Part shown: one piece after another, positions 10,490 through 40,081 of the stretch
Layout of the letters: every line of letters starts with the position of its first letter
How positions within the stretch are numbered: the stretch's first letter is position 1
DNA from: Clostridia bacterium
Lineage (GTDB): Bacteria > Bacillota > TC1 > UBA5767
NCBI GenBank assembly: GCA_030625965.1
Contig: DAOUPV010000008.1
Coordinates: 1-52,132 of the forward strand
Reading direction: 5' to 3'
DNA: 52,132 nucleotides
Position numbers and translations under genes: made by a program
The notes under the pieces: model-generated
The model's input: only the letters and a program-made list of their open reading frames with translations
Database searches by the model: none
What the model was told of the DNA's origin: nothing

Positions 10490-10690
10490 ATCGCTCACGT
10501 AGACGAACTATGCAACGAAATTCGTTTGCAACCTAGGCAGGTCTCCTGACTCAGATTTAACACTCTTGCCCCCTTCCCTCAAGATGAAGTGGTTGTGGCA
10601 AGAAATCCTCTGTTACAGTGGCGGGCCCGTCCGGGATTTTCACCCGGTTCCCTATTCTCCCCCTGCGGGGCACCTAGGCTGTTATGTTTT
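10490..10690 (-). ncRNA. cobalamin riboswitch
   Basis: The minus strand carries the B12 box GCCACTGTAACAG (complement of 10610-10622), the preceding GGGAACCGGGTGAAAATCCC block, and the peripheral GAGTCAGGAGACCTGCC near 10540. The aptamer is followed by an intrinsic terminator, so cobalamin binding should stop transcription of cblT-cblS. Confidence 0.95.
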
Positions 10691-10693
10691 TTC

Positions 10694-12038: not shown

Positions 12039-12051
12039 GGTGAGCCTAGTA

Positions 12052-12414
12052 TTAACGGTTCCGCATCAGGAAAAACAGGAACAGATCGGCAAAACCGATG
12101 AGTAGAAGCGTGGCGGCGATAAGCCAGGAGGAGAGTTCGGCATAGTAGCCGGTCGCATTGATTGTGGAGTAGACGAGCATGCCGCATGTGAAGGCGTAGC
12201 AGAGGAGCGCACGTTTGTTTTCTCGCAACCACAGGATGCCGCTTGCGATGAGTAGCAAAGCCAGTATGAACTCGGAACCCATGTGCATGGAGATGCGAAG
12301 AGGTTCTGATCTCAGTTCGCTGACTTGCCCGGCAGCGAGCAGCATCACCCAGAGCAGCGCGATCGAACATCCGGTGAATAGACAAAATATAGCGGTGATT
12401 CTACTGGTTTTCAT
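12052..12414 (-). CDS. small four-helix membrane protein of unknown function
   Basis: A 120-aa protein with four hydrophobic segments (about residues 7-28, 45-62, 70-88 and 96-116). I do not recognise a family. The ATG at 12414 follows CCGGAGGTAAT, a strong site, so it is very probably translated. It is convergent with the TraX gene and divergent from the c-di-GMP riboswitch locus. Confidence 0.75.
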   Translation of the reverse strand: MKTSRITAIFCLFTGCSIALLWVMLLAAGQVSELRSEPLRISMHMGSEFILALLLIASGILWLRENKRALLCYAFTCGMLVYSTINATGYYAELSSWLIAATLLLIGFADLFLFFLMRNR

Positions 12415-12497
12415 ATTACCTCCGGGAAACAGATTTATGTAAGTTGTAATTCTATTTTACGAGGAAGATGCTGAATCATAATTCTTAGATAGAATAT

Positions 12498-12526
12498 TTG
12501 ACAGAAAGTTATAACTGCTATATAAT
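12498..12526 (+). promoter_or_regulatory. consensus promoter of the c-di-GMP riboswitch locus
   Basis: TTGACA and TATAAT are both perfect and 17 nt apart, predicting very strong transcription into the first riboswitch. Confidence 0.9.
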
Positions 12527-12552
12527 TTCTATACTAAGTATAAAAGACAAAT

Positions 12553-12629
12553 GAAAAGGCAAACCTGATGAAAGTCGGGGACGCAAAACCACGGGCCTAC
12601 GGGAAACTACGGTAGCCGGGTTACCGAAA
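12553..12629 (+). ncRNA. c-di-GMP-I (GEMM) riboswitch, first copy
   Basis: The core AAAGGCAAACCTG, GAAAGTCGGGGACGCAAAACC, ACGGGCCTAC and GGTAGCCGGGTTACCGA matches the GEMM-I aptamer, including the GACGCAAA junction and the GNRA-type GAAA loop. The next hairpin with a T run (12646-12677) is the likely output. Confidence 0.96.
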
Positions 12630-12645
12630 TGAGTATGCACTACCA

Positions 12646-12677
12646 CTCTATTGGTAATCCAATAGGGTTATTTTTTT
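12646..12677 (+). terminator. terminator of first c-di-GMP riboswitch
   Basis: CTCTATTGG / CCAATAGGG with a TAAT loop and a tail GTTATTTTTTT. It is placed to be the riboswitch expression platform. Confidence 0.85.
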
Positions 12678-12688
12678 GAGGAGGCATC

Positions 12689-12748
12689 ATGGTAGCGTTA
12701 AAGCAGACAGTAATGATTCTGGTGTGGAAGATCTGCACCGGGAGCTAA
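12689..12748 (+). pseudogene. tiny ORF 1, probable decayed N-terminus of a secreted protein
   Basis: A 19-codon ORF (MVALKQTVMILVWKICTGS) behind GAGGAGG at good spacing, directly after the first riboswitch terminator. Its start resembles the signal peptide of the large downstream protein (MRALMQAVMILMMLAGI). Either a decayed duplicate truncated early or a real short hydrophobic peptide. No family known. Confidence 0.5.
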
Positions 12749-12796
12749 AGGGCATAAGCAATCGCATTCTGACAAGAAAAATTGAGAAACTACAAT

Positions 12797-12873
12797 CGAA
12801 AAAGGCAAACCCGATGAAAGTCGGGGACGCAAAGCCACGGGCCTACGGGAAAGCTAAGGTAGCCGGGTTACCG
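12797..12873 (+). ncRNA. c-di-GMP-I (GEMM) riboswitch, second copy
   Basis: A second aptamer nearly identical to the first (AAAGGCAAACCCG, GAAAGTCGGGGACGCAAAGCC, ACGGGCCTAC, GGTAGCCGGGTTACCGA). It lies about 245 nt downstream of copy one, with an ORF between them, so this is duplication of a whole unit rather than a tandem aptamer in one leader. Confidence 0.96.
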
Positions 12874-12892
12874 AAATGAGTGAGAATCCTTG

Positions 12893-12923
12893 ACTCTATT
12901 GGTAATCCAATGGAGTTATTTTT
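12893..12923 (+). terminator. terminator of second c-di-GMP riboswitch
   Basis: A perfect-length hairpin ACTCTATTGG / CCAATGGAGT (one wobble) with a TAAT loop, followed by TATTTTTA. Confidence 0.85.
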
Positions 12924-12936
12924 ATGGGAGGATACT

Positions 12937-13005
12937 ATGAAAACATTTAAACAGAGAGTTTTGATCCTAGTTTGGAAGCTCAGTACAAGAACAAACAGAG
13001 CATAA
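12937..13005 (+). pseudogene. tiny ORF 2, probable decayed N-terminus
   Basis: A 22-codon ORF (MKTFKQRVLILVWKLSTRTNRA, read as two parts MKTFKQRVLILVWK and LSTRTNRA) after GGGAGGATACT. It aligns with tiny ORF 1 (xKQxVxILVWK) and sits at the same distance from its riboswitch, confirming unit duplication. Probably a degenerate copy; a leader-peptide role is possible. Confidence 0.5.
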
Positions 13006-13049
13006 GCATAATGCCTAGACGTTTGGTGTAGAAACGAAGGAGGCAAAAC

Positions 13050-13169
13050 ATGTTTATCTTGATGAGGGGCATAATGATTCTGATGATCTTTGCAGGTATG
13101 CTGTATATGCCATTGGCCGTCTTTGCGATGGAAAAAGAAGATGATGAAGCTGCTACACCAACAGTGTAG
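13050..13169 (+). pseudogene. tiny ORF 3, truncated copy of the secreted protein
   Basis: A 39-codon ORF behind GAAGGAGGCAAAAC. It encodes a full signal peptide ending MPLAVFA, followed by an acidic stretch (MEKEDDEAATPTV) and a stop. The same signal peptide, LxMPLAVFA then acidic residues, opens the intact gene that starts at 13245, so this is very likely a truncated paralogue. No riboswitch precedes this copy. Confidence 0.6.
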
Positions 13170-27032: not shown

Positions 27033-27062
27033 TATCAAATTCACGCCTATATCTTAGTTGAA

Positions 27063-27106
27063 GAAAACCTGATGAATCCGTCGATTCATCGGGTTTTCTC
27101 TAATTT
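27063..27106 (+). terminator. terminator of the purine operon
   Basis: A long stem GAAAACCTGATGAAT / ATTCATCGGGTTTTC with a short loop, followed by TCTAATTT. Confidence 0.88.
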
Positions 27107-27199
27107 ATGACAAATTTCATTTTTGCAGGGAGGTACAAGGATAACTATTGACGTAAGAACAAAAATGTTGCACACTATAGCTAGAATAATTCTCTGAAA

Positions 27200-27342
27200 T
27201 CTTCATTCCTACGGCTTGCTAGGGAATGAAGATCGCTAGGTCATTTTAGAAATGAGATGGTCCCCCATTGTGGAAAGGAGACTAATACGGCTTTGGGCCG
27301 TTATTGTCGCGCTTTAGACTCTGGGGAACCCCGGAGCTTTTT
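27200..27342 (+). ncRNA. probable molybdenum-cofactor (Moco-like) riboswitch with terminator
   Basis: A structured leader precedes the molybdopterin-related operon. Features seen are the hairpin CTTCATTCC / GGGAATGAAG near 27200-27230, the block GGTCCCCCATTGTGGAAAGGAGAC, and a hairpin AATACGGC-TTTG-GGCCGTTATT. It finishes with CTCTGGGG-AA-CCCCGGAG followed by T7, an obvious terminator (27318-27345). The GGAAAGGA block followed by a GGC/GCC hairpin resembles the Moco RNA motif as I remember it, and the downstream genes fit, but I could not align it to the family model. Confidence 0.5.
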
Positions 27343-27358
27343 TTATGGAAAAAGTAGG

Positions 27359-27862
27359 ATGAAGAAGATGAAAATGAGGTTGGTCCCGGTTCTGATACTG
27401 TGCCTGTTGCTTGTCGCCTGCATGGAAGGTCAGACAATGCCTTGGGAACGGGAGCTGGCCCAGATGGCAGACTTGGAGAAGTACCAGTTGTTATCCGTGG
27501 AAGAACCGATCCTGGTAGCCTATCGGAGCCAGGACGGTAGCGAGACCCTATGTGTCAGCCGGGCGGCTGGTTACAAAGAGGACGTCGTGGTGCTGACGTG
27601 GTTTCAGGATGGCACCGTAGAGCAAGTGAGAATTCTGCAAGAAGAGGAGACCGAGGACTACGGGGGATACATTCAGGAGGAATGGTTTCTTTCGCGGTTC
27701 CAAGGCATTAGTGCGGACATGGAACTCAGAATGGTGAAGATGGCCAAGAAGGTGGAGAACGAGGTAGTGGCGGTTACCGGTGCTACGGTGTCCAGTCAAG
27801 CAGTAATGCAGGCAGTTCAAGAGGCGCTGGATTATATGGATGGTTATAAGGAAGGGAGCTAG
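27359..27862 (+). CDS. FMN-binding-domain lipoprotein
   Basis: A 167-aa exported lipoprotein (lipobox LLLVAC, Cys21). The C-terminal two thirds look like an FMN-binding domain (PF04205, as in RnfG/NqrC), ending in VAVTGATVSSQAV (about residues 135-147), whose TGAT is the usual site for covalent FMN attachment by ApbE. It therefore probably carries flavin on the outer face of the membrane, giving possible one-electron redox chemistry. No apbE gene is in the window. Start choice is uncertain: ATGs at 27359, 27368 and 27374 are all possible. It is first of a tight gene run reaching 37478. Confidence 0.75.
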   Translation: MKKMKMRLVPVLILCLLLVACMEGQTMPWERELAQMADLEKYQLLSVEEPILVAYRSQDGSETLCVSRAAGYKEDVVVLTWFQDGTVEQVRILQEEETEDYGGYIQEEWFLSRFQGISADMELRMVKMAKKVENEVVAVTGATVSSQAVMQAVQEALDYMDGYKEGS

Positions 27863-27865
27863 GTT

Positions 27866-28951
27866 ATGTTTCAAGTGAGAAAGAATTGGTTGGTGCTGAT
27901 CATGCTTGTGGCTATGGTGCTGTTGGTGGCCGGATGCGCGCAAGCTTCAGCCGAGGAAGAGAAAGTAATGGGCTCGTTCAGCATAACGGGTGTAGGAGAA
28001 GAACACGTGATAGACGTTGCTGAGATGGTGGAACAATATGAGGCGGTGGAACTGTATGTTACCAGCGTGGATTCAGCCGGAGAGACCAATGAATATCATA
28101 TCAAAGGAGTGAAACTGGACGATGTTCTCGCTGGAGAGAATATCGATACTGCTACTTTCAGTAGCTTGAGGGCGGTAGCCAGTGACGGTTATGCCATTGA
28201 GGTACCGAAGGAAATCGTAGAGGCTCGGGAAATCGTGTTGGCCTATGAGATCAATGGGGAGGCCCTTGCGGATGACAGCAAGCCGGTCCGTCTGATTGTG
28301 CCGGAGGAACGCTCCATGTACTGGGTGCGCAATATGGTCAACCTGGATCTGATACAGGAGACAGCGAGCGCTGAAGTTCGCAAAGTAATCTTCTTAGACA
28401 CGGCGGTAGCCGACCTACCCAGTGAGCCCTATGTCTATTACGATGCGGAGGACACGGCGGTATCCATGACGGACCTGCTGTCCACCTATGGGGAAGAAGG
28501 GACGGAAGACCTGTACTTTGCCTCTGCAGACGGACTGGAAAAAGACGAGACCAGGGAGAATGTGGAGCTTGGGTATCTGAAGATCACAGGCGAAGAACGA
28601 CCGCTGTTCCTCTCCCCGGAGTTGCCCAAAGGTATGCACATAAAGCAAGTGCTCTGTTTCAGCCAGCAAAGTGTCAGCTTCTACAGCCTGGAGAGTGGCT
28701 TTAATGCCCTGGAACATATGGCGTTGGACAAGTTTGAGGGTATAGCGCTGAAGGAGATCTTGGATAGCACCAGCCTGGTTCAGACGGACAGCTACTTGCT
28801 GACAGCCAGAGACGGTTACAGCGTTTCGGTGGACAGTGAATATCTGCTGACCGGCATGATTTATTTCAAGGACGGGACCTACCGGTCGGTTTTCCCGGAT
28901 CTGGCGAAAACGACCCAGATCAAGGAGATTCTCAGCATCGAAGCCGAATAG
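27866..28951 (+). CDS. lipoprotein with tandem molybdopterin-oxidoreductase-fold domains
   Basis: A 361-aa exported lipoprotein (lipobox LVAGC, Cys24). Residues about 33-170 resemble the second half of the sulfite-oxidase fold (PF00174): IKGVKLDDVL, then the hallmark ASDGYAIEVP, then INGEAL and a VRLIVPE strand. A second copy is at about 285-361 (FEGIALKEIL, ARDGYSVSV), with a degenerate one possibly between them. The Cys that binds Mo in sulfite oxidases lies in the N-terminal half, which is absent, so these domains are more likely to bind a pterin or cofactor than to be redox enzymes. The gene starts 3 nt after the FMN lipoprotein. Confidence 0.75.
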   Translation: MFQVRKNWLVLIMLVAMVLLVAGCAQASAEEEKVMGSFSITGVGEEHVIDVAEMVEQYEAVELYVTSVDSAGETNEYHIKGVKLDDVLAGENIDTATFSSLRAVASDGYAIEVPKEIVEAREIVLAYEINGEALADDSKPVRLIVPEERSMYWVRNMVNLDLIQETASAEVRKVIFLDTAVADLPSEPYVYYDAEDTAVSMTDLLSTYGEEGTEDLYFASADGLEKDETRENVELGYLKITGEERPLFLSPELPKGMHIKQVLCFSQQSVSFYSLESGFNALEHMALDKFEGIALKEILDSTSLVQTDSYLLTARDGYSVSVDSEYLLTGMIYFKDGTYRSVFPDLAKTTQIKEILSIEAE

Positions 28952-28993
28952 GCCGGTGTTCGGATATATTACCTAAGAAGGAAGGACAAGAAC

Positions 28994-29518
28994 ATGAAAA
29001 AATTTGGAGTATTGTTTCTAATCGTATTGATGTCTGTCAGCCTGTTGGCAGGCTGCACCCCTGAGGAAGAACCTGCCGCGGAACCTGTAGAAGAGCCGGT
29101 TGCGGAAGCGCCTGTTGTTGAAGAACCTGCTGCTGAAGTGGAATCGATGTGGACCATCGACATCGCTGGTACCCCGTTCACCCAGGCTGACTATGATGCA
29201 GTAGGCGAAGTGGAAATCTCGGCGACCAAGAAGAGCAAGGACGGCACCGAAGTGGCTCAGACCTGGAAAGGCGTACCATTGAAAGCGGTATTGGATTATG
29301 TTGGGGTTGAGGGATACAGTGTTGTGACCTGCGAAGCCGCGGATGGATACGCCAAGGATGTCGACGATATGACTTTGGTGGATAGCGAAGGCACCATCCT
29401 GGGCATGGTTGTAGACGGGGAAGCGGTCAGCGCGGAAGACGGCTACATCCAACTGGTGATGGACGGCAAGGGATCCAACTGGTGGATTAAGAACCTGGTG
29501 AAAATTAGCACCAAGTAG
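28994..29518 (+). CDS. small lipoprotein with one molybdopterin-oxidoreductase-fold domain
   Basis: A 174-aa lipoprotein (lipobox LLAGC, Cys21) with a Pro/Glu stalk (about 23-48) and one sulfite-oxidase-fold domain (about 50-174): TWKGVPLKAVLDYVGV, then CEAADGYAKDV, VDGEAV, and the ending NWWIKNLVKIS. It resembles a free-standing solute-binding module. The Cys just before ADGY is not in the position of the Mo-ligand Cys of sulfite oxidase. AGAAGGAAGGACAAGAAC precedes the ATG. Followed 8 nt later by an ECF S component, the natural partner for a capture protein. Confidence 0.78.
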   Translation: MKKFGVLFLIVLMSVSLLAGCTPEEEPAAEPVEEPVAEAPVVEEPAAEVESMWTIDIAGTPFTQADYDAVGEVEISATKKSKDGTEVAQTWKGVPLKAVLDYVGVEGYSVVTCEAADGYAKDVDDMTLVDSEGTILGMVVDGEAVSAEDGYIQLVMDGKGSNWWIKNLVKISTK

Positions 29519-29526
29519 AGGCAGGC

Positions 29527-30093
29527 ATGAGTTATCTGGACAAGAGATTAAAAGATTTTTCCATAATGGAACTGGTACTGATCGGTTTGGTCGCCGCCCT
29601 GGGGGTGGCGACTAAACCGATTGTTGTGCCTTTGGTTCATATTATCACCGGGCCTTTGTTCATTCCGGGCGGTGCCGTGGCCGGCGGATTCTATATGCTG
29701 TGGATCGTGCTGGGCGCAGGAATCATCAAACGAAGAGGCGCCGGCACCCTGATCGCCCTGACCCAGGCTTTGCTGGTTGTGGTTATGGGCATATACGGGA
29801 CACATGGCATTGTGAGCATCCTCACCTACACCTTGCCCGGCATGGCTGTGGACCTGGTCTTTCTGTTTTCACGCAACAAGGTTTACACACCACTGCACTA
29901 TTTCTTAGCAGGCGGACTGGCCAATTTGACAGGGACTCTCAGCGTCAACTGGGTTTTCTTCCAATTGCCGTGGATACCCCTATTGCTCAGCCTGAGCGTG
30001 TCACTATTATCCGGGGGCTTGGGCGGTTTGATCGCCTACCAGTTGGCGAAGCGTTTTGAATCATTACATCTGTTGAAAAAAAGACGACAGTGA
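29527..30093 (+). CDS. ECF transporter S component (substrate unknown)
   Basis: A 188-aa membrane protein with about five to six hydrophobic segments, resembling vitamin-type ECF S components (ThiW/YkoE-like): FSIMELVLIGLVAALGVATKP, then GPLFIPGGAVAGGFYMLW and GTHGIVSILTYTLPGMAVDL. It should work with the two ATPases and T protein encoded at 32.1-34.2 kb. Lying between molybdopterin-fold lipoproteins, with MobB downstream, it is inferred to carry molybdenum cofactor or a pterin precursor. Confidence 0.82.
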   Translation: MSYLDKRLKDFSIMELVLIGLVAALGVATKPIVVPLVHIITGPLFIPGGAVAGGFYMLWIVLGAGIIKRRGAGTLIALTQALLVVVMGIYGTHGIVSILTYTLPGMAVDLVFLFSRNKVYTPLHYFLAGGLANLTGTLSVNWVFFQLPWIPLLLSLSVSLLSGGLGGLIAYQLAKRFESLHLLKKRRQ

Positions 30094-30121
30094 ATGATGG
30101 GATTAGAGGGAGTGTTTAGAT

Positions 30122-31564
30122 TTGAAGATGAATAGATGGATGTTTCTTAGTATGGCGCTAACGGCGGTCCTAGTAAGTCTGCTGGTTTTTTTGCCGCGCG
30201 TTGAAGGGTATCAGCCACGGGTGGAACTGCTGGGAGACGTGGAACAGACCTTGTCGTTCTGCGACCTGAAAGAGATCGATGAAAACCTAGATGGAGAAGC
30301 AAAGGTTTCTTTAGAGGCATTGATGCACATCTGCCGGCCGTGGGAAACATCCTACAGTGTATTGCTGGTGGGGTCCGACGGGTTGGTCGCTAGGATCGAC
30401 AACAGGTTGGCTGAAACCTGGCTCAGTTTTTCGACGGAAAACGGTTGGGAGATTCGGGACGCATTGCATCCGGTGAGCGCCCAGATCAAGCACCTGGCGG
30501 AAATCGTAGTGGTGTCTGAAGAGGATGAAAGCCTGCTGTCTATCGGGGTGGGGAACAAATCCGGAGATTTGTTAAGAACCACGCCGGGCAACCTTTATCT
30601 GGATGGAAGGACACGGACCCTCCATCTGGAAGGCTCTTCCAGCATCGAACGGGAAGAAGGAAACTTCGGTGTCGATGTCTTCAACAGTTATAGGAGTAGG
30701 TCCCTGGGGGACCTACTGGATGGCGATGCCAAGCTGTGGATCAGCGGGCGTGATGGCGAGGTCTATCTACACAAAGGTGTAGGTGAACTCTTTTTAGATG
30801 GAAATCGTATCGGTTACCGCGATGTAGATTTCGAGGTGGTTGATATCGCGGGCATATTGGTGGATGCGCCTGTCGCTTCCATTGCGGATGCCTACGATGA
30901 GGCGCTGTATTACACTGGGAAGGATATTCCGGTGCTGCTCTTGTTCCTGGACGGGTTTTCCTATGAGCAGTATAGCTATGCCATGGCGAACGGTCATGCG
31001 CCTTATCTGGCGGGTGTGACCGGTGCCGAACCGGCGCTCAGTTTCTACAAACCGGTGACCAATGTGGGTTTTGCGGCCATGATTACAGGTCAGGGACCGG
31101 AACAGAACAATATACATTCCCGCGGTGACCGGATTCTGGATGAAAGTATCTTCAGTGTATTGGACGACCAAGGCAAAACCAGCCTGTTGCTGGAGGCGGA
31201 CATCCGCATACTTGATGCCAAGACCCAGGAAGTTTTGCACGTGGATACCAACCAGGACGGCAGTATCGATGACGAAATATACAGATCAGCGCTTATAGCT
31301 CTTGATCAGGGTTACGATTATCTGCTGGTGCATTTTCATAAGATCGATGATGCGGGTCATTCCTACGGCCCTTTCGGTGATGAGACGTTAGAGCAGATCC
31401 GTTTGCATGACGGTTATGTTGAATCTTTGGTACAGGGTTTTGAAGGCAAAGTCATCATCGTGGCGGACCACGGCATGCATGAAACGCTTGATGGAGGAAC
31501 CCATGGGCAGGTGCGTTGGGAAGATCTAGTGGTACCCTATCTGGTACTGAATGGAGGAGAATAG
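30122..31564 (+). CDS. membrane-anchored phosphodiesterase, alkaline phosphatase superfamily
   Basis: A 480-aa protein with an N-terminal signal anchor and an extra N-terminal region (about 30-265) of beta-rich character. The C-terminal catalytic domain has all expected nucleotide pyrophosphatase/phosphodiesterase ligands: FLDGFS (metal Asp, about 278), PVTNVGFAAMITG (Thr nucleophile region, about 312), KIDDAGHSYGP (about 408), VADHGMH (about 448) and GTHG (about 459). It faces outward and could cut pyrophosphate bonds such as those of MGD/MCD dinucleotides. The TTG at 30122 is spaced well from GAGGGAG; ATG 30128 is the alternative. Confidence 0.85.
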   Translation: MKMNRWMFLSMALTAVLVSLLVFLPRVEGYQPRVELLGDVEQTLSFCDLKEIDENLDGEAKVSLEALMHICRPWETSYSVLLVGSDGLVARIDNRLAETWLSFSTENGWEIRDALHPVSAQIKHLAEIVVVSEEDESLLSIGVGNKSGDLLRTTPGNLYLDGRTRTLHLEGSSSIEREEGNFGVDVFNSYRSRSLGDLLDGDAKLWISGRDGEVYLHKGVGELFLDGNRIGYRDVDFEVVDIAGILVDAPVASIADAYDEALYYTGKDIPVLLLFLDGFSYEQYSYAMANGHAPYLAGVTGAEPALSFYKPVTNVGFAAMITGQGPEQNNIHSRGDRILDESIFSVLDDQGKTSLLLEADIRILDAKTQEVLHVDTNQDGSIDDEIYRSALIALDQGYDYLLVHFHKIDDAGHSYGPFGDETLEQIRLHDGYVESLVQGFEGKVIIVADHGMHETLDGGTHGQVRWEDLVVPYLVLNGGE

Positions 31565-31565
31565 A

Positions 31566-32078
31566 ATGAAAAAATGGTTGATTACCCTGGTGGCTGTGCT
31601 GGTACTGGTGGTGGCTGTGTTGGCTTTTCTCAACCAGGACAGCGTGGCAGAGAAAAGAATATTGGAAGAAAGTGCAGCTTTTGTCGTCAAGGCGGAGACT
31701 GAAACTTTAGCTACCTATTATCTTGCGGATTTGCAGGAGATGGAATCGGATACCTTTGAGGCGGTTCTGAAAACCAACGGCAAAGACCCTGAATATTACG
31801 ACTACGAGGGTGTGGAATTGAGGACGCTCTTCCATGAAGCGGGTGTAGACTTAAAAGAGTATGACAGTGTAATCCTCACCGCCATTGACGGTTATTCGGT
31901 GGCCTATACTGTAGTGGAAGTGCTGAAAGAAGACAACGTCTATCTGGTTTATGGCAAGGAAGGCGCTTTGCTGGAGACCAGGGAAGAAGGGGGACGCGGT
32001 CCCTACCAGAGCATCGTGGTAACAGATCAGTTCAGCAACCGCCGATGCAAATTTGCTGTGGAAATGGATGTGCGCTAA
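31566..32078 (+). CDS. membrane-anchored protein with molybdopterin-oxidoreductase-fold domain
   Basis: A 170-aa protein with an N-terminal membrane anchor (about 4-22, no lipobox) and one sulfite-oxidase-fold domain: YYDYEGVELRTLFHEAGV then the hallmark ILTAIDGYSVAYTV and a C-terminal IVVTDQFSNRRCKF strand. It has no Mo-ligand Cys in the classical position. The ATG at 31566 is preceded by GGAGGAGAATAGA, which includes the phosphodiesterase stop. Third exported protein of this fold in the locus; its stop abuts the ATPase start. Confidence 0.75.
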   Translation: MKKWLITLVAVLVLVVAVLAFLNQDSVAEKRILEESAAFVVKAETETLATYYLADLQEMESDTFEAVLKTNGKDPEYYDYEGVELRTLFHEAGVDLKEYDSVILTAIDGYSVAYTVVEVLKEDNVYLVYGKEGALLETREEGGRGPYQSIVVTDQFSNRRCKFAVEMDVR

Positions 32079-32765
32079 GTGGATGTGCTGCGCTTCGAAT
32101 CGGTGAGCTTCTCTTATGAATCTGAAGCATCACTGATCGAGGATATCAGCTTTTCCCTGGATAAGGGGACTACCACCGCATTGGTAGGCCTGAGCGGCAG
32201 CGGTAAGACAACTATCTGCTATCTCGCCTGCGGTATCATCCCCCGGGTCTATGACGGAACCGTAAAGGGTAAAGTCATGTTGTTTGGAGAGGAGCTGCCA
32301 TCTATGCATCCGGAGCGCATTGCCGGTAAAGTGGGCATCGTTTTTCAGAATCCTGAAACCCAGCTCTTCTTGCCGTATGTCGAAGATGAATTGGCATTCG
32401 GCCCGGAAAATCTCTGTCTTGAACCGCGCGAAATTGAACACAGGATCCTAAGTGCTATGGAAGACGTTGGAATCGAAAGCTTGCGAGGGGAGCGTACCAA
32501 TACGCTCTCAGGTGGACAGAAACAGATGGTGGCCATCGCTTCCGTCCTGACCCTGCAGCCGGACATCCTCATCTTCGACGAGATCATGTCACAGTTGGAC
32601 CAAAAATCCAAAACCAAGATCCGGGTGTTGATTCGCCGCTTGCAGCAGCAGGGCAAGACTATCCTGATGGTGGAACATGATTTTGAGAATCTGAAGCTGG
32701 CGGACCGGGTGCTCCTTCTTGATGGAAAAGGTCTGCGGGTAACCGACGGGGAGGTGGTCCTATGA
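32079..32765 (+). CDS. ECF transporter ATPase (first)
   Basis: A 228-aa ABC ATPase: Walker A GLSGSGKTT (about residue 37), Q-loop FQNPETQLF (typical of cobalt/ECF ATPases), signature LSGGQKQM and Walker B ILIFDEIMSQLD. The start is a GTG immediately after the previous stop codon. It overlaps the second ATPase gene by 4 nt (ATGA). With the T protein this forms the energising module of the ECF importer. Confidence 0.92.
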   Translation: MDVLRFESVSFSYESEASLIEDISFSLDKGTTTALVGLSGSGKTTICYLACGIIPRVYDGTVKGKVMLFGEELPSMHPERIAGKVGIVFQNPETQLFLPYVEDELAFGPENLCLEPREIEHRILSAMEDVGIESLRGERTNTLSGGQKQMVAIASVLTLQPDILIFDEIMSQLDQKSKTKIRVLIRRLQQQGKTILMVEHDFENLKLADRVLLLDGKGLRVTDGEVVL

Positions 32766-33469
32766 ACGATGCCGTAAAAGACACGGTCTACAGCATCGAG
32801 AACCTCAGTTTCTCCTATCCTCACAAAGGTGGGCGCTATCGGGATACCTTAGACGAGCCATTGTTGCAGGACTTGAACTTTTCTTTGTACCGAGAGGATT
32901 TCACGATGCTCTGCGGGGATAACGGTTGCGGTAAGACTACGTTGGGGAAACTGTTGCTGGGTATCTTGCGACCGGACCAGGGCCGGGTCTTGCTTGAGGG
33001 AAATGACATGCAGACAGGCTCGTTGGCCGGGACGGCCAGACGGGTTGGTTACCTCTTCCAAGACCCCGGCAAGCAGCTGTTCGGCACTACGGTCTATCAA
33101 GATCTGGCCTTTCCCCTGCGCCTCAGGAATCTTGCAGAAGAAACCATAGAAGAAAAGATTGAGAATATTTTATATGAACTGGATCTTGTGCCGCTGCGTG
33201 ACAGGGGGCCCTATGTGCTCAGTCAAGGGGAGAAGCAACGGGTGGCGTTGGCGGCCATCCTGCTCAATGGCGCAGAATATCTGGTGCTCGATGAGCCCAC
33301 CACATCTCTAGACGTTAGAAGAAAAGAGAAATTGGCAGACCTGCTCGCACGGCTGCGAAAGCGTGGGGTAGGCATCCTGATGATCGGCCATGACCAGGAC
33401 TTCATCAAAGCGCATGCCAGTCGAGTATTGAGAATGGAACGGGGAGGAATTTTCGATGAAAGTCTATGA
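32762..33469 (+). CDS. ECF transporter ATPase (second)
   Basis: A 235-aa ABC ATPase: Walker A GDNGCGKTTLGK, Q-loop FQDPGKQLF, signature LSQGEKQRVA and Walker B YLVLDEPTTSLD. The C in Walker A and Gln for Gly in the signature are mild departures from consensus. It overlaps the T-component gene by 14 nt. Confidence 0.92.
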   Translation: MNDAVKDTVYSIENLSFSYPHKGGRYRDTLDEPLLQDLNFSLYREDFTMLCGDNGCGKTTLGKLLLGILRPDQGRVLLEGNDMQTGSLAGTARRVGYLFQDPGKQLFGTTVYQDLAFPLRLRNLAEETIEEKIENILYELDLVPLRDRGPYVLSQGEKQRVALAAILLNGAEYLVLDEPTTSLDVRRKEKLADLLARLRKRGVGILMIGHDQDFIKAHASRVLRMERGGIFDESL

Positions 33470-34184
33470 CCCCCGTACCAAACTGGTAGTGGTCATCGCA
33501 CTCAGTAGCTTGGGCGTGGTGATCAAGGATGCAAGCCTGCTCGCACTGGTCTTGGTGGTGGGTATCATCGTCAGCCACCATTTCGGGGCTTCCATGTTGC
33601 GGGCCTATCACCGGCTTAAGAAGCTCTTGGTCATGCTTTTTCTGATTGCAGTGCTTCAAAGTTTGTTCAATGGTCAGGGAGAAGCGTTGTTGGTTTGGGG
33701 CAACTTTACTTTCCTGACTACGGGCGGCCTGATGCGTGGATTGGAGTTCCTGTTGCGCATGGCCATCGTATTGCTTTCTGCCACCATTGTGGCAACGGCG
33801 GACGAGCGGGAGATGGTGCAGGGTCTGGTCCAGAGCAAAGTACCCTATGAGCTGGCTTTCATGGTTTCGCTGGGTGTGCGTTTTCTGCCCATGCTGGCCC
33901 AGGAACTGCAGGACACCATGGTGGCTTTGCAACTAAGAGGCATCGAGCTAAAAAAGATTCCCTGGCGCAGCCGACTGGATACTTATGTATATCTGCTGCT
34001 GCCTGTTTTGGTGGGAACCATCAAGAAAGCGGAAGCGATCTCCTTGTCCATGGAGACCAAGGGATTTCGTGCCAGGCATAGGCGTAGTAGTTATCGCAGG
34101 CTGAGGTTTGCGACGCGAGATGTCTTCTGGATGGTTGGCAGTACCATGTCCGCCTGTATGTTGCTGGTTTTATACTGGCAGTAG
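33456..34184 (+). CDS. ECF transporter T component
   Basis: A 242-aa membrane scaffold with about five to six helices. The two coupling motifs are visible as ALQLRGIELKK (about residues 150-160) and METKGFRARHR (about 196-206), corresponding to the Ala-Arg-Gly-type motifs that dock into the ATPases. With a dedicated S component, ATPase pair and T protein in one operon, this is a Group I (self-contained) ECF importer. Confidence 0.92.
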   Translation: MKVYDPRTKLVVVIALSSLGVVIKDASLLALVLVVGIIVSHHFGASMLRAYHRLKKLLVMLFLIAVLQSLFNGQGEALLVWGNFTFLTTGGLMRGLEFLLRMAIVLLSATIVATADEREMVQGLVQSKVPYELAFMVSLGVRFLPMLAQELQDTMVALQLRGIELKKIPWRSRLDTYVYLLLPVLVGTIKKAEAISLSMETKGFRARHRRSSYRRLRFATRDVFWMVGSTMSACMLLVLYWQ

Positions 34185-34197
34185 AGAGAGGGGAAAT

Positions 34198-34959
34198 ATG
34201 AAAATAATATCCGTGTTCGGCGTAACTCAGTCTGGCAAGACTACGACGGTGGAACGAATCATCGCTGAACTTAAAAAAAGAAGATACCGAGTCGACTCCG
34301 TTAAGGAAATTCACTTTGAAGAGTTCAAGATCGACATGGAGGGCAGCAACACTGACCGCCATCATAAGGCTGGGGCCGGTATCGTGACGGCTAGAGGATT
34401 TTTTGAGACGGATGTCCTGTTCAAGGAGAAACTGCCCATGGAAACCATCTTTCGCTTTTACGATAGCGACTATCTGATCTGCGAAGGGGTGACGGATGCC
34501 AACGTGCAGAAAATCATCTGCGCCCATACGACGGAGGAAGTCGATGAGCGGCTGGACGGTTCGGTCATCGCCATAGCCGGCAGACTGGGAAATGAGATGC
34601 AAGAATACCGGGGTCTACCCGTACTGAATGCCGAAGAGGATATAGCGCAGTTGGTAGACTTCATTGAGGAAAAGGTTGTAGAAAAACTGCCGGACTTTCC
34701 CGCGGAGTGCTGTGATGCCTGCGGGCATGGCGGTTGCCGGGGTCTATTGGCGGCCATCAACAAAGAGGAAGCGACCCGGGAGGAATGCATTCTGGATCAA
34801 AAAAAAGTGCGTCTCTACGTGGACGGCAAGGAAATCGAGATGGTGCCCTTCGTGCAGCGCATCGTGCGCAATTCGGTCTTGTCTTCGGTGAGCGAACTGG
34901 ATGGCTATCGCAAGCAGGGAAAGATCGAAGTGGTCATCGGTGAGGAGTCTCCCAGATGA
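34198..34959 (+). CDS. MobB-like GTPase with C-terminal cysteine cluster
   Basis: A 253-aa cytoplasmic protein. Residues 1-165 resemble MobB, which helps turn molybdopterin into its guanine dinucleotide: P-loop FGVTQSGKTTTVERI (7-21), then KIHxE-like VKEIHFEEFKIDMEGSNTD and RHHKAGA, then YLICEG. The C-terminal 90 residues are extra: Cys171, 172, 175, 180 and 197 in an ECCDACGHGGCRG context suggest a metal or Fe-S site, followed by a helix and strand region. The ATG at 34198 follows AGAGGGGAAAT. It is the clearest cytoplasmic link of this locus to molybdenum cofactor. Confidence 0.85.
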   Translation: MKIISVFGVTQSGKTTTVERIIAELKKRRYRVDSVKEIHFEEFKIDMEGSNTDRHHKAGAGIVTARGFFETDVLFKEKLPMETIFRFYDSDYLICEGVTDANVQKIICAHTTEEVDERLDGSVIAIAGRLGNEMQEYRGLPVLNAEEDIAQLVDFIEEKVVEKLPDFPAECCDACGHGGCRGLLAAINKEEATREECILDQKKVRLYVDGKEIEMVPFVQRIVRNSVLSSVSELDGYRKQGKIEVVIGEESPR

Positions 34960-35642
34960 ACCGTGATGCGCCAGGGGAAGTGACTGTGCAGGGAAGAAGA
35001 CTTATGGTGCGCCATAGGTTTTTTTCGCTTAAGAACATGGTCCTGCTGGTGGCGGACCAAACGGGGAAAGAGATGGTCTACAAGTGTTTCGTCAAAGGAC
35101 GGCCGTCGCTGGTCAGGGAAAAGGCAAACCTGTTGCGATTCGCTCCGGAGAGTCCGGCGCTGTTTGGGGAATCGGAGGATGCGCTGCTCCTGGAATACAT
35201 CGAGGGGGAAAACCTGTTGGATGTCTATGTCCGTCTGGAAGAAGAGGGCCTGGCGGGGACGGAAGTGCTGGACAACCTAGTGGGATCCTTGGGGCGCCTA
35301 TATAGGAAAAGTCCCGGCTACCGGTTAGGGGATATGAATCTGAGGAATTTCATCTTGGAGAAGGACAATGGTCGGATACGCTTTGTGGACTATGAGGAAA
35401 CGTCCGTGGGAAAAAGAGAAGAGGACGCGGGACGCCTGATGGCTTTTCTGCTGACCTACCGACCGGTGGATACGGTCTGGAAGAGAACTTTCGTCTCCCA
35501 TCTTACCGAACGTCTGGTTTTATCGGGGCTGGATGGGACGCTGATCCGGCATTACGCGGAGGATGAGCTTACGGCCATCTCCCACCGACGACGGATGGAG
35601 AAAATCATGCTGCCTGAGGGATTCCCAGACTCAATTTGTTGA
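34956..35642 (+). CDS. small kinase-like protein (protein-kinase/RIO/Kdo-kinase fold)
   Basis: A 228-aa protein with a compact kinase pattern: a possible ATP-Lys in MVYKCFVKG (about 50), the hinge LLLEYIEGENLLDVY (about 80), catalytic-loop-like RLGDMNLRNFIL (about 124-133; the usual His-Gly-Asp reads Leu-Gly-Asp) and the metal-Asp segment FVDYEETSVGKREEDAGRL. Substrate unknown; a small molecule is as likely as a protein. It overlaps the MobB-like gene by 4 nt, so it may act on the imported compound. Confidence 0.72.
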   Translation: MNRDAPGEVTVQGRRLMVRHRFFSLKNMVLLVADQTGKEMVYKCFVKGRPSLVREKANLLRFAPESPALFGESEDALLLEYIEGENLLDVYVRLEEEGLAGTEVLDNLVGSLGRLYRKSPGYRLGDMNLRNFILEKDNGRIRFVDYEETSVGKREEDAGRLMAFLLTYRPVDTVWKRTFVSHLTERLVLSGLDGTLIRHYAEDELTAISHRRRMEKIMLPEGFPDSIC

Positions 35643-35687
35643 GCTTTTGAATAACATAACGTACAATGTGCCTAGGAGGTCGAAATC

Positions 35688-37478
35688 ATGAAAATCAAAG
35701 AGTTTTTTAGCAGAAGAAATTTCGAGAGGCTGGGTGATCTTTTCGTCGCCACCTGGCAGCGTTACCCCTTGACCCTAACACAGAGTTACCTGATGGCCGC
35801 GTTGGTCATCTACCGCATCGAGGCCGATCTGGGATATAACAGTGCAGCTGCCGAGGTGATCGACAAGCTGCTGTTCACCCTGGTCCTGGGCATAGCCATC
35901 AGTTTGGTGGTGGAAGCAGGGTTGGAGCGCTTTGCTACCGTCCTATGGAAAAGACTGGTCTCCTATGGTGTGCAAATAGGACTTCTGGTTCTCTATTACC
36001 AGTATGTCATGGCCGATTATCAGACCGATGCTGTATTGATCCGCCATTTCATGCTCATCAGTGCGTTGCTGTTTGCCTTCACCGCTATACCCTATCTGCT
36101 GAAACGGGAGTGGTATGAATTCTATGTTATCCGTCTGATTGCCCGTTTCTTCGAGACACTTGCCTACACCATCGTGTTGGGCCTGGGTGTTACGGCCATC
36201 CTGTTCGCCATCGAGAACCTGTTGTACGAGGGTATGAGCGGGGATCTGTATGCCTATACCTGGATTCTTTCCTTTTGTGTTTTTGCCAGCACCTTTCTTC
36301 TGGGTGGGGTGCCGAGGTTGTCAGATATGGTGGGACGCGATGAGCTAGGCAAGTTACTGCAGGGTATTTTCACTTATGTGATCCTGCCGCTCTTATCCGT
36401 ATATTCGCTGGTATTATATATTTATTTCTTCAAAATCATTTTCACCATGAACTGGCCTACCGGCATGGTTTCCTATCTGGTAATCTTTTCTTCGGCCATC
36501 GGAACGTTGGCCATATTCCTGCTGTCACCGGTGCTGGAGGAGAATAACTGGATCAAGGGATTCAACACCTGGTACCCGAGAGCGGTACTGCCGCTCTTGG
36601 CCATGATGTTCGTGGCCATCTTCATGCGCATTGGGCAGTATGGCATCACCGAGAACCGCTATTTCATCCTGCTATTCGGTATCTGGGTGGCCTTTGCCTA
36701 TCTCTACTTCAATCTGAGGAAAGGCCGGAGGAATATCATGCTAGTCATCGTTTTGGTGGCCCTGATGCTCATATCCGTAGTGGGGCCTGTAAGTGCATTC
36801 TCCATATCCAGACGTAGCCAGAATTCCCGTTTCAACAGGATTCTCGCAGACAACCAGATGCTCGCGGTAGACGGAACCATCCAAGCGTCGGATACGATCT
36901 CTGATGAGGATCTGAGCCAGCTTTACGAGGTCGTGGACTATTTCCGTCGCAATCAGGAACTGAGTGACCTGGAAGCGATGCCGGATGGCATCGGCGAAGG
37001 CAAGGATGATGATCTGGAAGCCTTGTTTGGTGCACCCAGGCCTGAAGGCAGTAAGGTGGAGTGGGGGAACTATTACAGTTTCCATGAAAATGGGAATAAT
37101 AGGGAACCGCTCGATATATCCGGCTATGATGCTTATTTCCATGCTAGCGCCTTCAATTATGAGGGTGAGAAGGTGAATCTATACCAGGATGAGATCGTCA
37201 CAGGACAAGGAGTGGTCGAGCTTTCCATCGACGAGAACTCCTTGCTACTGGTTTCTCTGGACGGACAGGAGCGTTATCGCTTAGATCTGTCGGACTACGG
37301 AGACAAGCTTTATCAATTGGAACAGGACGAGGGTTATCAAAGCATGCAGGAAGCTCTGGTGGTGCGGGAGGAAACTGACGGCGCTCAGGTCATCATCTAC
37401 CTGCGGCGTTTGCGGGGAGACCTACTTACCGAAGGCATTGAGGACGTGGAACTTGAGTGCTTCATAGATTTGAGATAA
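35688..37478 (+). CDS. DUF4153-family membrane protein
   Basis: A 596-aa protein: about ten to eleven membrane segments in residues 20-385, then a large soluble C-terminal domain (about 385-596, acidic). The N-terminus and membrane region look like DUF4153 (PF13687). Function unknown. GCCTAGGAGGTCGAAATC precedes the ATG. It is last in the run beginning at 27359, followed by a clean terminator, and so probably ends the transcript. Confidence 0.75.
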   Translation: MKIKEFFSRRNFERLGDLFVATWQRYPLTLTQSYLMAALVIYRIEADLGYNSAAAEVIDKLLFTLVLGIAISLVVEAGLERFATVLWKRLVSYGVQIGLLVLYYQYVMADYQTDAVLIRHFMLISALLFAFTAIPYLLKREWYEFYVIRLIARFFETLAYTIVLGLGVTAILFAIENLLYEGMSGDLYAYTWILSFCVFASTFLLGGVPRLSDMVGRDELGKLLQGIFTYVILPLLSVYSLVLYIYFFKIIFTMNWPTGMVSYLVIFSSAIGTLAIFLLSPVLEENNWIKGFNTWYPRAVLPLLAMMFVAIFMRIGQYGITENRYFILLFGIWVAFAYLYFNLRKGRRNIMLVIVLVALMLISVVGPVSAFSISRRSQNSRFNRILADNQMLAVDGTIQASDTISDEDLSQLYEVVDYFRRNQELSDLEAMPDGIGEGKDDDLEALFGAPRPEGSKVEWGNYYSFHENGNNREPLDISGYDAYFHASAFNYEGEKVNLYQDEIVTGQGVVELSIDENSLLLVSLDGQERYRLDLSDYGDKLYQLEQDEGYQSMQEALVVREETDGAQVIIYLRRLRGDLLTEGIEDVELECFIDLR

Positions 37479-37528
37479 AGCGGTCCAGATAAGATCAAAT
37501 GAGTATTGAAAGAAGAACAAGATAAGGA

Positions 37529-37556
37529 AAAAGGCGGCGTTGCCGCCTTTTTCGTT
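37529..37556 (+). terminator. terminator before modA
   Basis: A perfect 9-bp stem AAAGGCGGC / GCCGCCTTT with a 3-nt loop and trailing TTCGTTATTT. It separates the ECF locus from modABC. Confidence 0.88.
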
Positions 37557-37623: not shown

Positions 37624-38394
37624 ATGAAAAAAAGCAGTTGGATAGCAGTTATAGTATTGGTTATGGCCTTGGTGGCGGTTTTTTATACACAGACCGGAAG
37701 CAGTGACGAGGAAATATTTGTGATGGCTGCCGCCAGCCTACAGGATGTACTGGGCGAAGTGGCTGAGGTATATCAAGCGGAAACCGGTACGGAAGTTGTG
37801 CTGAATTTTGCTTCATCGGGTACCTTACGCAAAGGAATCGAGGAGGGTGCCGATCCGGACATCTTCCTATCGGCATCCACCAAACAGATGAATATGCTCT
37901 TGGAGCAGGGGTTGGTGGAGGAAGAGCATAGCAAGACGTTGGTGATGAATCAGGTAGTGCTTATTGCCTACGACTCGGACAGCGTATATCAAAAACTGGG
38001 GGATATCGTGGATGCGGATTTGCTATTGGCCATCGGTGACCCGGATTTCGTGCCGGCCGGCCGTTACGCGCTGCAGGTGATGCAGGCCAGAGGCCTGGAT
38101 GAAGCCTTGGCGGAGCGTTTCCTGATCTGCAAGGATGTACGCCAGGTGCTGGCCTATGTAGCCAGTGGCGAGGTGGAACTGGGCATGCTCTATCGGACGG
38201 ATGCCATGAGCAGCGAAGCTGTACATATCATCGAGGCCTACAACGAAGACGAGTCAGGGGTGATCCAATATCCGGCAGCACTCTTGGGAAAAGGTCTTGA
38301 AAACGAATCTGCCCAAGATTTCTACGTGTACCTGTTCAGCGAAGAGGCACGAGATATTTTTAAGGCGCATGGATTTTTGACAATGGAGGACTAG
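37624..38394 (+). CDS. modA: molybdate ABC transporter substrate-binding protein
   Basis: A 256-aa molybdate/tungstate receptor. The N-terminus is a hydrophobic anchor without a lipobox Cys, unusual for a Gram-positive binding protein, so it may stay as an uncleaved anchor. The ModA pattern is clear: VMAAASLQDVLGEVAEVY, NFASSGTLRKGIEEGADPDIFLSAS (split as NFASSGTLRKGIEEG and ADPDIFLSAS), and GDPDFVPAGRYALQ. AGAGGATATGAC precedes the ATG. First of modABC. Confidence 0.93.
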   Translation: MKKSSWIAVIVLVMALVAVFYTQTGSSDEEIFVMAAASLQDVLGEVAEVYQAETGTEVVLNFASSGTLRKGIEEGADPDIFLSASTKQMNMLLEQGLVEEEHSKTLVMNQVVLIAYDSDSVYQKLGDIVDADLLLAIGDPDFVPAGRYALQVMQARGLDEALAERFLICKDVRQVLAYVASGEVELGMLYRTDAMSSEAVHIIEAYNEDESGVIQYPAALLGKGLENESAQDFYVYLFSEEARDIFKAHGFLTMED

Positions 38395-38396
38395 TT

Positions 38397-39056
38397 ATGA
38401 TTCAACCCATCTTGGTGTCGCTCAAGGTAGCTTCCTTGGCGTTAATACTCATAATAGCAGCTAGCCTGTTATTGGTCAGGTTGTTTACCGAGAAAGAGTT
38501 TCGGGGAAAGGATACCTTGGAGACGCTTATCATGCTGCCCATGGTACTACCACCCACCATTTTGGGTTACGGTCTGCTGCTCTTGTTCGGGCGCCACGGT
38601 TTTTTGGGGAAACCGTTATTCGCCTTGTTCGATGCTTCCCTCATTTTCACCTGGGGGGCGGCGGTATTGGCGGCCTTCATTGTGGGTCTGCCCCTGATGT
38701 ACCAAAGCCTCAAGGGAGGGATTACAGCCATTGATGAGCAATATATCCAGGCTGCCAGAACGCTGGGCCTGGAGGAGGAGCGGATTTTCTGGCGCATCAA
38801 GCTGCCGCTGGCCAGACAGGGCTTTATAAGTGGATTGGCTTTGGCCCTGGCCAGAGCCCTCGGCGAGTTCGGAGCCACCCTGATGGTCGCCGGCAACATA
38901 CCTGGCAAGACTCAGACGGTGCCCATTGCCATCTATTTCGCTGTGGAAGCCGGGCGCTACCAGGAAGCCAACATCTTACTGGGCTTCATGCTGCTGTCCA
39001 GTCTGGGACTGATCTATTTCATTACATCCAAACGGAGAGGGAGGCGGACATGCTAG
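38397..39056 (+). CDS. modB: molybdate ABC transporter permease
   Basis: A 219-aa permease with about five membrane segments. The EAA-type coupling loop ARTLGLEEERIFWRIKLPLA and the ModB segment MLPMVLPPTILGYGLLLLFG are clear. It begins 2 nt after modA and overlaps modC by 7 nt. Confidence 0.95.
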   Translation: MIQPILVSLKVASLALILIIAASLLLVRLFTEKEFRGKDTLETLIMLPMVLPPTILGYGLLLLFGRHGFLGKPLFALFDASLIFTWGAAVLAAFIVGLPLMYQSLKGGITAIDEQYIQAARTLGLEEERIFWRIKLPLARQGFISGLALALARALGEFGATLMVAGNIPGKTQTVPIAIYFAVEAGRYQEANILLGFMLLSSLGLIYFITSKRRGRRTC

Positions 39057-40081
39057 AAGTATCTGTTCAGAAGAAACTCCACCTTTTCCATTTGGACTGT
39101 ACGTTCAAAGTGGGCCGCGAGGTCCTGGCGGTTACCGGGGAATCCGGGGCGGGTAAGACATCGCTATTAAAGATGATTGCCGGTCTGATGCAACCTGACG
39201 CGGGACGGATCTCGCTGCACGGAAGGGAACTCTACAACCAGGACAACCTGGATGTGCGTACCCAGGACCGTAAGCTTGGCTATGTGTTTCAAGATTACGC
39301 CTTGTTTCCTCATATGAGTGTGGAGGACAACCTGTTCCTGGCCCAGAAGGTAAAAGATGAGGCTCAAGTGCGGGAACTGCTAGGGACATTCGGGGTAGAC
39401 CCCTTGGCCAAGCGCTATCCACATGAGATATCCGGTGGTCAGAGGCAGAGGGTGGCCTTTGCCAGAGCGCTAGTGACCAAACCGGACTTCCTCCTCTTGG
39501 ACGAGCCATTCTCCTCGTTGGATCCCCAGACCAAGGAGCGTCTCTACAAGGAGTTCCACAACTTTCGCAAGGAATGGAATATCGGGGCGCTCTTGGTAAC
39601 CCATAATGCGGTTGAGGCCCAGATCCTATCGGACAAGGTGCTTGAAATCCGTGACGGACGAGTGGTTAGGGAGAAATTCAATCATCTGAAAGGCAGGATT
39701 TTGGAAATCGTTGATGAAGAGTATTACAAGGAACTTGTCATCGAGGCGTTGGGGACCCGTTTGAGCGTGGTCAAACCGGAATATTTTTCCTTTGCCAATT
39801 ATAGGGAGAACATGCAGGTTGCCATCAGTATCAAACCGGAGAACCTGATTCTGACCAAGGACGCCCGAATCGGCACCTGCGGCGGCAATCGCTTTGGCGG
39901 CGTGGTGAAGCATGTCCATCGCACCAGACGCTCGACCAAGGTTGAGCTTCAGGTAGGGGAGGAAACCCTGCTCTGTGCGCTCGGGCTCCGGGCAGCCGAT
40001 CGGTTGGATCTGAAGAAAGAGGACCATGTGGTCTGCCTGTTGGCCGAACAGGACGTAGAGATTCTCAATACATTGGATTGA
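39050..40081 (+). CDS. modC: molybdate ABC transporter ATPase
   Basis: A 343-aa ATPase: Walker A GESGAGKTS, Q-loop FQDYALFPHM, signature ISGGQRQRVAFARAL and Walker B LLLDEPFSSLDP, followed by a C-terminal TOBE-type domain (about 265-343) that can bind molybdate. It completes modABC, which would supply Mo (or W) next to the inferred cofactor-import locus. Confidence 0.95.
   Translation: MLEVSVQKKLHLFHLDCTFKVGREVLAVTGESGAGKTSLLKMIAGLMQPDAGRISLHGRELYNQDNLDVRTQDRKLGYVFQDYALFPHMSVEDNLFLAQKVKDEAQVRELLGTFGVDPLAKRYPHEISGGQRQRVAFARALVTKPDFLLLDEPFSSLDPQTKERLYKEFHNFRKEWNIGALLVTHNAVEAQILSDKVLEIRDGRVVREKFNHLKGRILEIVDEEYYKELVIEALGTRLSVVKPEYFSFANYRENMQVAISIKPENLILTKDARIGTCGGNRFGGVVKHVHRTRRSTKVELQVGEETLLCALGLRAADRLDLKKEDHVVCLLAEQDVEILNTLD

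Follow-up and report, generated by a model that had tools for sequence, protein, structure and literature searches.

Can bacteria that rely on molybdenum or tungsten enzymes obtain the pterin cofactor of these enzymes from outside the cell? The published view is that users of the molybdenum cofactor (Moco) must make it themselves (PMC9793310). As of 2022, uptake of exogenous Moco had been neither examined nor observed outside C. elegans, in which the carriers are unknown (PMC9793310), and a 2026 review states that the way in which pterins pass through bacterial membranes is not known (PMC13259868). The question is raised here by an operon in a 52,132-nucleotide stretch of DNA (hereafter the window) from a Clostridia bacterium (assembly GCA_030625965.1, contig DAOUPV010000008.1), in which an earlier reading of the sequence, the original prediction, had seen a possible system for capturing and importing Moco. 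Our analysis suggests that this operon is likely to encode a dedicated salvage importer for a molybdopterin-type cofactor, that is, Moco, the tungsten cofactor (Tuco), or molybdopterin after loss of the metal.

Riboswitch and protein content of the operon

The sequence strongly supports riboswitch control of the operon, three external PF00174-fold proteins devoid of the relevant Cys, an exported phosphodiesterase (PDE) with an intact active site, and a complete set of energy-coupling factor (ECF) transporter components. The genes form a single transcription unit (~27100-37553), flanked by one terminator upstream (27062-27099) and another downstream, and were identified by Pfam and NCBIfam profile matches (Table 1). 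The curated cut-offs were passed by every named family match apart from the kinase match and that of the short Fe-S motif, and the genes of the flavin mononucleotide (FMN)-binding lipoprotein and of MobB start further downstream than their longest open reading frames (ORFs). All the elements named in the original prediction were found, including its probable Moco-like leader, which proved to be a Moco/Tuco riboswitch (RF01055; 49.6 bits, gathering score 36, E 5e-11).

In the RF01055 alignment the stem P3 positions are deleted from the window aptamer, and P3 is missing from every riboswitch in an alignment of 26 sequences; P3-less members of the class track Tuco users (PMC2408646). Since an intrinsic terminator lies directly behind the aptamer (local fold of 27297-27346, -14.3 kcal/mol), the most natural reading of this leader is that of an OFF switch. 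Ligand binding to this class is expected to repress, and the class is reported to sense the mature cofactor, discriminating against close analogues (PMC2408646). The host genome contains five RF01055 matches, four of them above the gathering score, and its other Moco/Tuco riboswitches (contigs C22, C47, C76 and C96) precede a CysQ-like gene, which sits on the moa contig, the gene of the tungstate importer TupA, and two genes of tungsten aldehyde oxidoreductases (AFOR). The type of riboswitch and its genomic company speak for tungsten no less than for molybdenum.

The three PF00174-fold proteins, which we label MPTB1 to MPTB3, had been described as lacking the Mo-ligand Cys region of the sulfite-oxidase-family molybdoenzymes, and the family alignments bear this out: the core domains hold no conserved Cys, the only conserved ones in two alignments being the lipobox Cys (A4) and a C-terminal Cys (A3). 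An exported sulfite-oxidase (SUOX)-fold domain without this Cys is what characterises PruR (PMC13259868), and its absence from the MPTBs, as from PruR, suits reversible binding. By profile comparison MPTB1 and MPTB2 match SorA sulfite dehydrogenase and a PruR-type protein (for the MPTB1 profile, A4, SorA at E 3e-8 and the pterin-binding protein 7kos at E 4e-4). MPTB3 is the most widespread partner in the system, and the best PDB matches of its AlphaFold2 (AF2) model (predicted local distance difference test score, pLDDT, 92) are the pterin-binding PruR structures 7kom, 7kou and 7kos, followed by sulfite oxidases and YedY.

Among the other products, the FMN-binding lipoprotein bears a TGATxSS flavinylation-type motif, with TGAT invariant in eight relatives. 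The metal ligands and the nucleophile of the phosphodiesterase are intact, its catalytic residues (D277, T313, D409, H413, D449-H450 and H461) being invariant or nearly so among relatives, and its degenerate N-terminal domain is PF00174-like and matches the MPTB profile (E 3e-8, whole-protein profile comparison); a sequence search found no solved relative of this protein. The catalytic residues of the kinase (K43, D126, N131 and D145) are shared by all 17 relatives compared. The transporter genes follow the group I ECF plan, since PF09819, PF02361 and two PF00005 genes form one contiguous set, in most relatives as in the window, and the best PDB fold matches of the AF2 model of EcfS (pLDDT 90) are S components.

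Table 1. Features of the operon and of its downstream border, with window coordinates
Feature	Position	Strand	Evidence
Moco/Tuco riboswitch aptamer RF01055, P3-less (tungsten-cofactor) type	27180-27296	+	cmscan
Intrinsic terminator directly 3' of the aptamer (expression platform)	27319-27336	+	7-pair stem and T-run
FMN-binding lipoprotein, RnfG-like	27359-27862	+	PF04205, E 6e-14
MPTB1 lipoprotein, PF00174 domain (sulfite-oxidase fold) and C-terminal half	27866-28951	+	PF00174, E 1e-10
MPTB2 small lipoprotein, PF00174 fold	28994-29518	+	PF00174, E 1e-7
EcfS, S component, PF09819/YkoE fold	29527-30093	+	PF09819, E 7e-14
Type I phosphodiesterase, exported, membrane-anchored	30122-31564	+	PF01663, E 5e-14
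MPTB3, membrane-anchored PF00174-fold protein	31551-32078	+	PF00174, E 2e-5
EcfA ATPase	32079-32765	+	PF00005; conserved operon position
EcfA' ATPase	32762-33469	+	PF00005; conserved operon position
EcfT transmembrane coupling protein, CbiQ family	33456-34184	+	PF02361, E 2e-29
MobB-like GTPase, C-terminal Fe-S motif	34198-34959	+	PF03205, E 4e-17; MobB/FeS NCBIfam, E 1e-35
APH/Bud32-like small-molecule kinase	34956-35642	+	PF01636, weak match below cut-off; invariant catalytic residues
DUF4153 membrane protein, within the transcription unit	35688-37478	+	PF13687, E 5e-23
Strong bidirectional terminator closing the unit ahead of modABC	37527-37553	.	12-pair stem
modABC	37624-40081		

Conservation of the operon and cofactor synthesis in its hosts

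We collected 28 further loci by similarity to EcfS, and in nearly all of them the gene order FMN-MPTB1-(MPTB2)-EcfS-PDE-MPTB3-EcfA-EcfA'-EcfT-MobB-kinase recurs, some having lost PDE, MobB or FMN. The association of the S component with PF00174 proteins, MobB and the phosphodiesterase, which the original prediction had proposed to look for elsewhere, is therefore not peculiar to the window, and the core is linked across many clostridial families. In 20 of the 28 loci RF01055 precedes the operon in the same orientation and is separated from it by no gene on the opposite strand; of the remaining eight loci, three lie on contigs that begin inside or close before the operon.

The original prediction had also asked whether the hosts lack moaA or moeA, and the answer was divided. 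The window host carries moaA, moaC, two moeA and six AFOR-type tungstoenzymes; the idea that it is a cofactor auxotroph was therefore rejected: the host makes the cofactor, and its regulon is geared to tungsten. Among the 28 other host genomes, by contrast, moaA is missing from 15, moaC from 11 and moeA from 10, and AFOR tungstoenzymes are present in 25 of all 29 hosts (window host counted). Seven genomes (G004, G005, G009, G013, G017, G027 and G028) combine the operon and AFOR with none of moaA, moaC and moeA; one of them, G009, is a complete chromosome (CP118523.1, Clostridiaceae bacterium M8S5) whose AFOR-family protein is full length. Two more genomes, G002 and G025, have kept moeA and lack both moaA and moaC, and in the G025 locus (L036) moeA is inserted between mobB and the kinase gene (11903-13138).

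We then surveyed 399 genomes with a completeness of at least 95% from the phylum, chosen because the class holds just six genomes, using the EcfS profile, moaA and AFOR as queries. EcfS scored at least 150 bits in 36 genomes, the strong group, and was intermediate in seven; the weak matches, below 56 bits, were mostly longer proteins. Strong EcfS was associated with AFOR (present in 31 of the 36 genomes with strong EcfS versus 184 of the other 363, p 3e-5), and among AFOR-bearing genomes it occurred in 10 of the 19 without moaA versus 21 of the 196 with it (odds ratio 9.3, Fisher p 3.6e-5, uncorrected for phylogeny), these ten genomes spanning eight families. The operon is thus found in hosts that have Mo/W enzymes and are unable to make the cofactor, as an enrichment and not as a strict rule. 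One of the surveyed genomes, G112 (one contig, 99% complete), has the full operon with its riboswitch and no moaA in the whole genome. Queries from E. coli and from the window host for moaB, moaC, moaD, moaE, mog and moeA found nothing in the 85% of its chromosome searched; as a positive control, the E. coli queries readily find the moaA, moaB, moaC, mog and moeA relatives of the window host. G112 nevertheless has AFOR, a bis-MGD-type (molybdopterin guanine dinucleotide) oxidoreductase and a MobA-like protein, and the presence of MobA in a genome without a molybdopterin pathway is understandable if molybdopterin is obtained from the surroundings.

From the content and distribution of the operon we infer the form of the substrate, the direction of transport and each biochemical step of a possible salvage route. 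Capture of the pterin by the PF00174 proteins would be reversible, as is that of other pterins by PruR; the phosphodiesterase would trim dinucleotide forms (MGD, or its cytosine counterpart MCD) or phosphate, and the flavoprotein would hold the dithiolene/pterin reduced. EcfS would then stack the pterin on its conserved Tyr/Trp pair for import by the ECF motor, after which the kinase would put phosphate back and MobB-FeS would pass the product on. At high cellular levels of Tuco/Moco, transcription of the operon would be terminated by the riboswitch. In hosts without moaA, moaC and moeA import would be the sole source of cofactor, and in hosts like that of the window, which makes Moco, it would supplement synthesis. 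Since the seven AFOR hosts also lack moeA, the form imported there is probably metallated, and moeA-bearing hosts could use metal-free molybdopterin.

Several observations weigh against this salvage route. Many of the hosts are metagenome-assembled genomes. Most genomes with strong EcfS (24 of 36) have moaA, indicating that import is not replacing synthesis there, and when AFOR is ignored EcfS is not associated with the absence of moaA (12 of 115 genomes without it versus 24 of 284 with it), consistent with salvage confined to users of the cofactor. Conversely, nine AFOR-bearing genomes without moaA have no EcfS (G050, G095, G175, G195, G224, G303, G384, G386 and G421), pointing either to another uptake route or to assembly gaps. 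Within the reach of the riboswitch model, five of the 28 loci, four of which have a riboswitch downstream, and 11 of the 19 loci from the survey have none ahead of the operon. The S component is distantly related to the thiamine transporter YkoE, and it is family membership that suggests the roles of the kinase, MobB, flavoprotein and phosphodiesterase as well as the exact substrate.

Alternative substrates and directions of transport

The relationship with YkoE raises the possibility that the operon encodes a thiamine or hydroxymethylpyrimidine (HMP) importer whose position behind a Moco/Tuco riboswitch is coincidental. YkoEDC, the group I ECF transporter for thiamine/HMP in Bacillus subtilis (5EDL; PMC5037267), shares with the operon its plan and the PF09819 S component, and YkoE is the best solved structural match of EcfS (template modelling score, TM, 0.71), reached solely by fold search, as PDB sequence searches with EcfS, single or as a profile, found nothing. 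The structural identity is only 20%, however, and the alignment probability is moderate (51%), backed by the fold match. We checked the YkoE thiamine contacts Tyr46, Trp49, Glu77, Gln95 and Asp131: the aromatic pair Tyr46/Trp49 is retained as Y56/W59, but Glu77 and Gln95, which hold the thiamine pyrimidine, align with Val84 and the invariant Pro104, and Asp131 falls outside the aligned part. Together with the invariant residues Q80, H93, Y101, D109 and N133 of EcfS, these replacements point to a different pocket. Moreover, no thiamine pyrophosphate (TPP) riboswitch was found in the window or in any related locus scanned with Rfam, the Moco/Tuco riboswitch being present instead, and the operon adds pterin-fold capture proteins, a phosphodiesterase, MobB and a kinase, of which the PF00174 and MobB partners have no connection with thiamine. 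The original prediction had named kinship of the S component with a proven thiamine transporter as evidence against itself; such kinship exists, at a distance, but with two of the five contacts missing we consider thiamine or HMP a very unlikely substrate.

Transport of the metal itself, as tungstate, molybdate or a metal chelate, seems to us the least probable of the alternatives. EcfT is CbiQ-like, modABC adjoins the operon, and the riboswitch class is the same as that ahead of the host TupA, as known for TupABC/ModABC transporters, which belong to the same nutrient economy (PMC2408646). These transporters move an oxyanion, however, whereas the operon would move the finished or metal-free cofactor, and the host already has tungstate/molybdate transporters. 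EcfS is not of the CbiM/NikM type, since the Pfam scan gave no CbiM family match, PF09819 alone being found, and its fold is YkoE-like. Metal import would also leave unexplained the pterin-fold lipoproteins and the hosts without moaA, moaC and moeA.

If the substrate is a pterin, it might still be one other than Moco, Tuco or molybdopterin, or an early intermediate such as cyclic pyranopterin monophosphate (cPMP) or an oxidised pterin. In favour of this, the pterins bound by PruR, whose fold is nearest to that of MPTB3, are non-molybdenum ones (PMC13259868), and G002 and G025 retain moeA without moaA and moaC. In the seven AFOR hosts that also lack moeA, however, the known route would leave such an intermediate without its metal, and G112 has no moaE in the part of its chromosome searched; with a riboswitch reported to discriminate the mature cofactor from close analogues, this substrate is unlikely, if less so than thiamine or the metal. 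Transport could also run outwards, delivering Moco/Tuco to extracytoplasmic PF00174 redox enzymes in the manner of the Listeria flavin exporter EetB-FmnA-EcfAA', in which ECF parts are tied to extracytosolic flavoproteins and export FAD (flavin adenine dinucleotide; PMC9973259), and the operon does encode a flavoprotein and PF00174 proteins. The latter lack the Mo-ligand Cys, however, the operon is retained in genomes making no cofactor, and a terminator-type riboswitch would silence it at high cofactor levels, just when an exporter would have to be active. Export therefore appears about as improbable as thiamine transport, and the direction proposed here is inward.

Neighbouring genes, related systems and implications

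Not everything in the window travels with the salvage importer. DUF4153 belongs to the same transcription unit, and the original prediction had counted it in the gene run, but it was not found in the 28 other loci and is conserved only within the genus, being present in the locus of a congener (L077). The modABC genes do lie behind the run, and as a neighbour of the operon they likewise recur only in L077 and in none of the 28 loci. Since the 12-pair terminator and a separate promoter-like site lie in between, modABC is its own transcription unit, and both modABC and DUF4153 were rejected as parts of the system. Overall, the original prediction is partly supported. Its core, capture and import, held up in every check made here, on the riboswitch, the linkage, the tungstoenzyme hosts without moaA, moaC and moeA, and the PruR/SUOX-type folds; it has lost these two neighbours, and its own host makes Moco.

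Elsewhere in the window we found a cobalamin riboswitch (10519-10692, - strand, 111 bits) and two riboswitches of the c-di-GMP-I class (cyclic di-GMP; 12548-12628 and 12795-12876, + strand), ~170 bases apart and possibly tandem. In three related loci a FecCD-type permease, an ATPase and a Peripla_BP_2 protein are encoded beside the operon (L017:3448-7620, L012:13364-16527 and L030:7670-10577), in L017 behind two tandem Moco/Tuco riboswitches, and this run is possibly a second importer for cofactor or a metal chelate. Three others (L022:776-9422, L018 and L026) have a riboswitch-led extension encoding an SLH-anchored PF00174 protein, a propeller protein and a Fer4_5+FMN_bind membrane protein. 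L025:6455-12220 encodes large surface proteins with PF00174 and Fn3-associated domains, one of which also has a Shr-like hemoglobin-interacting domain (Shr-HID).

In Gram-positive capture and import of heme or cobalamin (Isd/Shr type), surface-anchored and lipoprotein binding domains relay the ligand to a membrane importer. The operon resembles these systems in the layout of its relay, and in some relatives PF00174 domains also occur in additional proteins of the SLH-anchored or Shr-HID/Fn3 kind; it differs in the binding domain, in the proposed ligand, and in having an ECF motor instead of an ordinary ABC importer. The likeness to PruR lies in the exported domain of ~170 amino acids, the SUOX fold and the missing Cys (7KOM, 7KOS, 7KOU; PMC13259868), but in Proteobacteria PruR signals to the c-di-GMP regulator DcpA (PMC13259868), whereas in the operon more than one such protein accompanies a transporter, and a Moco/Tuco riboswitch is in control. 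The original prediction knew of no described importer of this composition, and in the open-access literature we found no precedent either: no Moco, molybdopterin or ECF importer of this kind is described there, and surveys of flavinylation gene clusters do not mention molybdenum in their main text. The ECF transporter class is known; what would be new is the substrate, together with the capture relay and the operon.

With the operon, MobB-FeS, the APH/Bud32-like kinase and the PF00174 lipoproteins without the Cys acquire a defined context, and uptake of exogenous cofactor could be put to the test with a system whose genes are known. The system might also yield binding proteins that stabilise the oxygen-sensitive cofactor outside cells. 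If the operon works as proposed, a genome without moaA need not lack active Mo/W enzymes, suggesting cofactor cross-feeding in anaerobic communities. We think it fairly probable, if somewhat less so than salvage by the operon as such, that the Mo/W cofactor is an exchangeable vitamin among anaerobes, and that some species, having lost molybdopterin synthesis and metal insertion, live on the cofactor of their neighbours through this PF00174-ECF system, which would be the first dedicated Moco/Tuco importer.

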